Part shown: one piece after another, positions 23,375-24,649 of the stretch
How positions within the stretch are numbered: the first letter of the stretch is position 1
Layout of the letters: the number at the start of each line of letters is the position of its first letter
Source: Halorussus vallis
GTDB taxonomy: Archaea > Halobacteriota > Halobacteria > Halobacteriales > Haladaptataceae
Length of the DNA stretch: 64,000 nucleotides
Assembly (NCBI RefSeq): GCF_024138165.1
Contig: NZ_CP100000.1
Coordinates: 3,348,001 to 3,412,000 of the forward strand
Direction: 5' to 3'
Notes under the pieces: model-generated
Seen by the model: the letters and a program-made list of their open reading frames with translations, nothing else
Database searches by the model: none
Told to the model about the DNA's origin: nothing
Program-made: the position numbers and the translations under genes

Positions 23375-23953
23375 CTATCCCGTATCGTACTTGTAGGTCG
23401 CGCTGTCGGGGTCGATGCCGAAGTCCTCGGCGCTCTCCTCGGGTTCGGCGTCCTGCTCGCGGGGGTGGGCGCCCTTGAATCGCTCTCGGAGGCGGTCGGG
23501 CATGACAAACTCGTCGACGTCGAGGCGCATCCCGACCGCGTCGGGGTCCAGGCTTTCACGCTTCGTTTCGAGGCGCTCGCGGAGTTTCTCCGGGAGGTCG
23601 CTACGGTCGACGCCCCCGAAGCCGAACTGCGCGAGGTAGTCGGTCGCGCTCGTCAGCGCGTACACCTCCTCGAACCCCTTGTCGCCGGCGTGGTCGACCA
23701 GGCGTTCGACCACGTGGGCGCCGACGCCCTGGCGCCGCCAGCTATCGAGGACCCCGATGCTCGTGAGTTCGCAGAATTCGCCCTCGTCGGTCTTGTGGAT
23801 GCGGATGCGGCCGAACCCCGCCTTCGCGTTCGAGCGCTCGTCGATGGCGACGACGTAATCCCGGGAGCGGAACGCGGTTTCGTCGAGACCCATCGCCTCG
23901 ATGTGGTCGAGCAGCCAGACCTCCTCTCTGTTTTTCGCGTCCCGGACGTACAT
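23375..23953 (-). CDS. GNAT-family N-acetyltransferase
   Basis: 192 residues from ATG 23953 (MYVRDAKNREEVWLLDHIEA). The acetyl-CoA-binding motif is in IGVLDSWRRQGVGAHVVERL, preceded by GFGRIRIHKTDEGEFCELTS and followed by YALTSATDYLAQFGF. A charged extension (about 125-192) rich in Glu, Asp and Arg is not part of the core fold. GNAT proteins acetylate amines on varied substrates; the target is unknown. Confidence 0.85.
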   Translation of the reverse strand: MYVRDAKNREEVWLLDHIEAMGLDETAFRSRDYVVAIDERSNAKAGFGRIRIHKTDEGEFCELTSIGVLDSWRRQGVGAHVVERLVDHAGDKGFEEVYALTSATDYLAQFGFGGVDRSDLPEKLRERLETKRESLDPDAVGMRLDVDEFVMPDRLRERFKGAHPREQDAEPEESAEDFGIDPDSATYKYDTG

Positions 23954-24187
23954 GCGAGAGAGTAAGGCGGTGTCCGATAAAAAGGTGTGGCGCCAGAAAC
24001 AGTTTCGGGCGGAACGGCGCGGAGAGTGCGTGCTGGCTGTGATTACTTCGAAAGTAACCATTCTACCGTGACCGTTCTACCGTGACCGCCACTCACACGA
24101 TACAAATGAAACCGCACCGCCAGCGCGCGCCGGGTCGAAGGTGAAGACCGTTTGCGCCGAGCCGAATTCGAAAACCCGCGAAAATTC

Positions 24188-24649
24188 CTACAGGTCTTCC
24201 AGCGAGCGAAGCCGCTGTTCGACCGTCGGCGGCGCGGCGCTGGGACCGTCGCGCACGCGGTGATCCGGAATCAACAGCGGCGCGGGGTTCTCGTCGAGGG
24301 CGGTGCGAACCATGTTCAGGTCGTCCTCGTCGGTGTGGTCGACCCCGCTGGTCATCCGGGCCAGCGTCTCGACGTTGATCTGTTCGCCGTAGGGAATCTC
24401 GCGCACGCGTTCGAGCACGGCGCGCTGGTCGGTGGGCATCGTCAGCGCGATCTCGACGTCCGAGAAGTCGTCCTCGACGCCGCCGAGGTAGTCGAAGATG
24501 CGGTCAAGGAGTTCGTGTTCCGCGTCGGCCTCCTCGTCCGGGGCGTCCGGGAACGAGACGCTGAGCACGCGCCCGCTGGCGATGCCGAGTTGGACGTACC
24601 GCTCCAGGTACGGCGATTCGCGCGCGAAGATGCCGGCCACGTCGTCCAT
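24188..24649 (-). CDS. MGMT-like DNA-repair family protein lacking the catalytic Cys
   Basis: 153 residues. The C-terminal half matches the O6-alkylguanine-DNA alkyltransferase DNA-binding domain: VLERVREIPYGEQINVETLA, a helix pair, then LLIPDHRV where active enzymes have (I/V)PCHRV. The acceptor Cys is Asp129, so methyl transfer in the usual way is not possible. Alkyltransferase-like proteins (known with Trp at this place) bind alkylated guanine and hand it to nucleotide excision repair; a like role is inferred. Divergent from trpC. Confidence 0.75.
   Translation of the reverse strand: MDDVAGIFARESPYLERYVQLGIASGRVLSVSFPDAPDEEADAEHELLDRIFDYLGGVEDDFSDVEIALTMPTDQRAVLERVREIPYGEQINVETLARMTSGVDHTDEDDLNMVRTALDENPAPLLIPDHRVRDGPSAAPPTVEQRLRSLEDL

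Follow-up and report, generated by a model that had tools for sequence, protein, structure and literature searches.

The MGMT-like gene of Halorussus vallis described here encodes what is, in all likelihood, the haloarchaeal orthologue of the archaeal two-domain MGMT, its alkyltransferase role having ended on the stem of the core haloarchaea (the haloarchaea outside f10 and f12, two families sister to the rest). Asp occupies the position of the alkyl-acceptor Cys, and alkyl transfer has very likely been lost. Taken as a whole, the observations are best explained, tentatively, by a former alkyltransferase that became a non-catalytic recognition protein, for which UvrABC would be the most economical partner. 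Few repair proteins are as widely retained as MGMT; an entire archaeal class has held on to the gene yet dropped the acceptor residue, and in 19 of the 25 core genomes searched no other protein with this domain was found.

An MGMT fold without the acceptor cysteine

The window, the whole 64,000-nucleotide stretch of H. vallis DNA that was analysed (contig NZ_CP100000.1, positions 3,348,001 to 3,412,000), carries the gene on its minus strand as an ORF with an ATG start and a product of 153 residues. The features discussed below, with the basis of each assignment, are:

24188–24649, (−): MGMT-fold protein of the Asp-type haloarchaeal family (153-aa ORF, PF01035, fold, family alignment)
24440–24649, (−): N-terminal domain, residues 1–70, as in two-domain MGMTs (secondary structure of the model; 4zyd alignment over residues 5–153)
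24284–24394, (−): helix-turn-helix (HTH) region, residues 86–122 (model helices 93–99 and 108–119; charge)
24371–24373, (−): Val93 at the site of the base-flipping Tyr, human Y114 (alignment)
24320–24343, (−): acidic insert in the HTH turn, residues 103–110 (alignment columns)
24254–24268, (−): PDHRV motif, residues 128–132, counterpart of PCHRV in MGMT (sequence, alignment)
24263–24265, (−): Asp129 codon GAT at the alkyl-acceptor position (sequence, alignment)
24227–24253, (−): rebuilt active-site loop, residues 133–141 (RDGPSAAPP), replacing the canonical glycine/aromatic loop (alignment)
24197–24229, (−): C-terminal helix, residues 141–151, with Glu144, Arg148 and the kept Glu151 (model, alignment)
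23375–24061, (−): GNAT acetyltransferase gene, downstream of the MGMT-like gene

The initial annotation had read the product as MGMT-like, with Asp in place of the acceptor Cys, and both points are borne out. The AlphaFold2 model, built from a 65-row alignment (pLDDT 97.3, pTM 0.90), superimposes on the Sulfolobus solfataricus OGT (4zyd) across the complete MGMT fold (Z 18.0; 139 residues at rmsd 1.9 Å), so that residues 5–153 of the predicted model have the two-domain arrangement, with the MGMT N-terminal domain predicted for residues 1–70. The match to Schizosaccharomyces pombe Atl1 (3gva) covers the C-terminal domain only (Z 6.3, 74 residues). Asp129 lies at the acceptor position within LLIPDHRV (residues 125–132), and another Cys filling the active position is ruled out, the 153-residue protein having none anywhere. 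The protein matches PF01035 with 30.6 bits (Pfam cut-off 27) and scores 21.7 bits with the NCBIfam ogt model (TIGR00589), below its cut-off of 46.4. We take Glu144, Arg148 and Glu151 to correspond to human K165, L169 and E172, respectively, and the Arg finger of MGMT to be human R128. Two residues remain past Glu151 before the chain ends.

Aspartate is the norm at the acceptor position

To tally the acceptor residue we used 126 distinct sequences taken from whole-genome loci, a nonrandom set in which 30 genomes, nearly all picked for low scores, inflate the non-Asp share, and other profile searches, which gave best-match loci only, inflate the Asp share: Asp was found in 114, Ser in 6, Cys in 2 and Thr, Gly and Ala in one each, with one unreadable. 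Leaving out the four f10/f12 sequences, the 122 core sequences have Asp in 114, Ser in 4, Thr, Gly and Ala in one each, and never Cys; one, the frameshifted L208, is unreadable. Trp does not occur among the 121 readable core sequences. A further 111 loci, all with Asp, were kept out of this tally (80 found via patterns including IPDHRVRD, and 31 others); the pattern-found loci do belong to the 178 Asp sequences behind the conservation percentages and charges given below.

The initial annotation had called Asp unusual. This holds against the known ATLs, which mostly have Trp, but not within the class, where 114 of the 121 readable core sequences make Asp the norm and general among haloarchaea. 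Because the non-Asp core members are scattered over several separate branches of the tree, Asp is strongly preferred yet not indispensable. Among the f10/f12 orthologues, Cys is found in two species and Ser in three: the tree set holds two Cys and two Ser sequences, to which a third f10 Ser copy (L316) is added, with Cys in f12 and one f10 genus and Ser in the other f10 genus. In our collection f10 comprises four genomes (G036, G051, G412 and G661) and f12 one (G038), three of the five being less than 90% complete. These are small genomes of 1.7–2.3 Mb.

The active site is rebuilt and the DNA-facing region is acidic

The substitutions extend well beyond the acceptor. The base-flipping Tyr occurs in 0 of the 178 Asp members; it is present in all 20 of the MGMTs that come from outside the class, in 7 of 7 canonical haloarchaeal MGMTs and in all five f10/f12 copies, including the four that were aligned. 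At the Lys165 site 77% of the Asp members carry Glu; Arg occupies residue 133 in 81% and residue 148 in 98%. The canonical loop is replaced in the Asp members by a highly conserved DGPSAAPP-like stretch. The four aligned f10/f12 sequences retain the Lys, Leu148 and a canonical-type loop. Consistent with this, the four f10/f12 proteins score 52.6–68.4 bits with the ogt model, against 21.7–33.3 bits for three core proteins (cut-off 46.4). Retained in about 100% of the 178 Asp members are the Asn hinge (N121), H130 and E151, and R131 is kept in nearly all.

The HTH region is altered as well. Of the 20 MGMTs from outside the class, 19 have no residues in columns 103–107, and D104 and D110 are each conserved in 90% of the Asp members. 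The Arg-finger site, Asn112 in the window protein, is a variable column. The change of Gly115 to Arg and the acidic HTH without a conserved Arg finger are older, being common to f10/f12. The suggestion that the DNA-binding helix is kept holds only in part: the Asn hinge is retained, the Tyr is absent, no Arg finger is conserved, and the HTH, with its acidic insert, exceeds the remainder of the protein in acidity. Its mean net charge over the 178 Asp members is about −6. Per residue, the charge of the HTH and of the rest of the protein is −0.164 and −0.098 in the Asp members, −0.043 and −0.061 in the 7 canonical haloarchaeal MGMTs, and +0.099 and +0.027 in the 20 MGMTs from outside the class. 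Since the canonical haloarchaeal MGMTs show the reverse pattern, adaptation to high salt alone does not explain the acidity of the Asp-type HTH.

All 20 MGMTs from other archaea in the phylum possess the Arg finger; it is missing in 6 of the 7 canonical haloarchaeal Cys-MGMTs (L001, L002 and L144–L148), which have Val or Ile instead.

The gene is nearly universal and under purifying selection

Of 391 class genomes sampled, 390 matched in a profile search with the family alignment, among them all 377 with completeness of 90% or more and contamination of 5% or less; the single genome without a match is 88% complete. Of 59 relatives, 55 have the gene, including all 37 of good quality. Across 294 genomes sampled from the phylum, class members included, the best match to the family profile from outside the class falls to E 3e-23, and the MGMTs fetched from outside the class among those matches have Cys in 20 of 20. 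Within the genus, omega has a median of 0.21 (136 pairs, 17 sequences, Nei-Gojobori), and the gene is under purifying selection.

Two irregular copies were seen, one frameshifted (L208, in G400) and one N-terminally short (L207, in G348), which may reflect sequencing error or decay. Three f2 genomes (G028, G044 and G057), very small for haloarchaea at 0.9–1.1 Mb and 70–78% complete, have UvrB and gave no match for the Asp-type family.

The acceptor probably changed on the stem of the core haloarchaea

The family tree (65 rows, 150 columns) was rooted on the sporadic canonical haloarchaeal MGMTs; many of its inner branches are weak and the bootstrap had not fully settled. The family forms one clade (100/100) and clusters (88/91) with Cys-MGMTs from other archaea in the phylum, and the canonical haloarchaeal MGMTs are a separate group (100/100). 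The first split within the family sets f10 and f12 (97/80) apart from the remaining members (100/93). The same division appears in an EF-2 tree of 30 genomes, G661 not among them (f10 and f12 99/99, the rest 100/100). The EF-2 locus of G036 (L278) is a 1288-aa open frame with several hundred extra residues, an insert that looks intein-like.

Most simply, Cys would be the ancestral acceptor, because it is found in all rows outside the family, in f12 and in one f10 genus; the Ser found in the other f10 genus seems to reflect an independent loss. We place the change from Cys to Asp on the stem of the core haloarchaea, together with the loss of the base-flipping Tyr, of Lys165 and of the canonical loop.

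UvrA and UvrB track the core clade in the genomes searched

The initial annotation had raised a damage sensor for excision repair, which is plausible: UvrA and UvrB are both encoded in the H. vallis genome, and among the haloarchaea searched their presence tracks the core clade. UvrA was found in 20 of 20 core genomes and in 0 of 4 f10/f12 genomes. UvrB was found in 33 of 36 haloarchaea outside f10/f12, the three misses being 59, 63 and 76% complete, and in 0 of 5 f10/f12 genomes (completeness 64–98%). No UvrB was found in the three f10 species with Ser, nor any UvrA in the two of them searched, which shows that Cys can disappear in the absence of UvrAB. One stem carries both the gain of UvrAB and the loss of Cys; this is suggestive, as a single coincidence and not a statistical association. 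A review (PMC5626843) states that all halophilic archaea examined carry uvrABCD, a generality to which f10/f12 would be exceptions. An outgroup genome with Cys (G436) gave UvrA-like matches and no UvrB, and Methanosarcina acetivorans, our control genome, gave matches to PF01035, UvrA and UvrB.

The gene neighbourhood was compared at 58 loci, which carry 48 genus labels (names and codes may overlap) or, in ten cases, no genus. Common neighbours are trpCBA and LonB-like and CPBP-like genes. A cluster with divergent trpB, the gene standing head to head with the trp genes, occurs at 43 of the 58 loci; on the side opposite trp, a LonB-like cluster occurs at 32 and a CPBP-like one at 29, the LonB, CPBP and TBP labels coming from our reading of the sequences rather than from family searches. 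In the window, the Asp-type gene sits between the GNAT gene and trpC. No repair gene was recognised among the ten neighbour clusters whose sequences were read. The neighbourhood thus offers no repair link, and since it differs between the two clades it points to no function. In the f10/f12 loci compared (L140, L141 and L143), a TBP-like gene, and not trpCBA, lies directly upstream on the same strand, possibly in one transcription unit.

Most core genomes searched have no other MGMT

A search of the H. vallis genome for a Cys-containing MGMT, as the initial annotation had suggested, found two further genes with PCHRV (C1:640276 and C1:2311308). Extra copies, all with PCHR, occur in 6 of the 25 core genomes searched; the other 19, two of them 66–78% complete, have no other PF01035 match at E ≤ 0.01. 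The four f10/f12 genomes searched with PF01035 contain their own family copy only. With the family profile, a hand count gives a second match at E ≤ 1e-5 in about 140 of 391 class genomes, some of these being split genes (G348, G400). A canonical MGMT alongside the Asp-type protein may therefore be commoner than 6 in 25, and roughly two thirds to three quarters of class genomes, an uncertain share, would have no canonical MGMT. For Halobacterium salinarum NRC-1, a 2010 study (PMC2816208) notes no homologue of yeast MGT1 and leaves O6-methylguanine repair open. The Asp-type family is a concrete, genetically tractable candidate for the handling of this lesion in haloarchaea, for which the f10/f12 orthologues provide a before-and-after pair. 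In this class, genes that carry the annotation methylated-DNA-cysteine methyltransferase may encode something other than such an enzyme.

What the Asp-type protein might do

To the computed fold, substitutions, distribution, tree position, purifying selection and UvrA/UvrB distribution, the explanation that we tentatively favour adds three inferred elements: the absence of alkyl transfer, ligand binding and coupling to UvrABC. On the core stem, the acceptor Cys would have become Asp, the base-flipping Tyr and Lys165 would have been lost and the guanine-binding loop rebuilt, after which the gene was kept almost everywhere. The former active-site surface, which has become charged and is highly conserved, would bind a ligand without reacting with it, and the ligand-bound protein would pass its ligand on, UvrABC being the most economical partner; searches of the sister clade with Cys or Ser recovered neither UvrA nor UvrB. 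Lesions would thereby be marked for excision, as with ATLs but with a different pocket and DNA-facing surface, in place of direct reversal of O6-alkylguanine. A conserved, newly charged pocket argues that the protein binds something, and non-catalytic recognition through the MGMT fold is a possible, by no means assured, mode of action. The coincidence with UvrAB and the precedent of the ATLs argue that lesions may be handed over; the acidity of the HTH and the lack of Tyr and Arg speak against DNA binding of the ordinary kind. Against a sensor also count that the UvrA/UvrB match is one event, on a branch where much else changed, and that the acidic HTH and the missing Arg finger are already found in Cys-bearing f10/f12 copies. 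The fullest version, in which a vertically inherited MGMT was rebuilt on the core stem into a two-domain, Asp-type, non-reacting sensor serving a newly gained UvrABC and has been near-universal since, strikes us as rather unlikely. If true, it would add a new type of alkyltransferase-fold sensor, convergent with the ATLs and differently built, with f10/f12 as a living intermediate.

Almost level with lesion sensing for UvrABC stands a role away from DNA, in which the fold would bind a small molecule, RNA or protein in a core process unrelated to alkylation repair; we regard this as a real, if uncertain, possibility. The loss of the DNA-facing residues and the strongly acidic HTH fit such a role, as do the shift of the pocket to charged residues (D129, R133, D134 and R148), retention in 390 of 391 class genomes and housekeeping neighbours, with trp genes head to head at 43 of 58 loci. 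However, nearly all members retain the Asn hinge, HR and Glu151, more than is required of a simple scaffold, no candidate ligand emerged, and the neighbourhood shifts between clades and gives no function. Haloalkane dehalogenases provide the logic for a turnover dealkylase, in which Asp129 would take the alkyl group as an ester on its carboxylate and water activated by His would hydrolyse it. Asp in 114 of 121 readable core sequences, with His130 and Glu151 in about 100% of the 178 Asp members, would suit this chemistry, but 7 of the 121, on several branches, have Ser, Thr, Gly or Ala instead, and the Tyr (site 93), the Lys (site 144) and the guanine loop that MGMT uses in binding and catalysis are gone, which makes it very improbable. 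Slighter still is the chance of a repair alkyltransferase acting via another residue or partner: O6-methylguanine must be handled in the 19 of 25 core genomes that have no other MGMT-domain protein, yet the window protein lacks Cys and scores below the ogt cut-off. Least credible of all is a decaying gene or annotation artefact; the one frameshifted copy (L208, G400) and the scattered loss of Asp would agree with it, whereas the within-genus omega, the near-universal presence and the high conservation of the rebuilt loop speak against it, the first two ruling out a pseudogene.

Comparison with known systems

The Asp-type protein departs from MGMT enzymes and from known ATLs alike in features that define them, in line with the earlier suggestion of a new variant. 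Among open-access papers we found none on this haloarchaeal family, which does not show that none exists. Filing it as an MGMT enzyme is ruled out by the acceptor Asp, the ogt score below the cut-off and the lack of Tyr and Arg finger; filing it as an ATL is ruled out by Asp rather than Trp, the N-terminal domain, the Asn hinge, the lack of Tyr and Arg finger, and the missing extension loop.

With the archaeal OGT (4zyd) it has the whole two-domain fold, HR, the Asn hinge and the Glu in common. It differs from that enzyme in lacking the acceptor Cys, the base-flipping Tyr and a conserved Arg finger, and in its rebuilt loop and acidic HTH insert. Canonical haloarchaeal MGMTs share PF01035 and the same kind of cytoplasm, but have PCHRV, Tyr and the canonical loop. 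The f10/f12 orthologues (L140, L141, L143, L206 and L316) belong to the same family by the tree, from which L316 was absent; the four that were aligned share the N-terminal domain, Arg115 and the acidic HTH with the Asp-type protein, and the group differs in its Cys or Ser acceptor and in retaining Tyr, Lys and a canonical-type loop.

With the ATLs (Atl1, 3gva; Vibrio parahaemolyticus, 2kif; Escherichia coli YbaZ) the protein shares an MGMT C-terminal fold without Cys and the presence of UvrA and UvrB in the genome. Some ATLs have Ala at the acceptor position, and the C-terminal extension loop of ATLs is missing from the window protein. ATLs contact UvrA and UvrC (PMC7835731; PMC10779285). In PMC10779285, ATLs are described as having mostly Trp at the acceptor and no N-terminal domain, as having lost the Asn hinge, and as keeping the Tyr and the Arg finger. 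The Asp-type protein shows the opposite pattern: Asp at the acceptor, the N-terminal domain and the Asn hinge kept, and the Tyr and the Arg finger gone.
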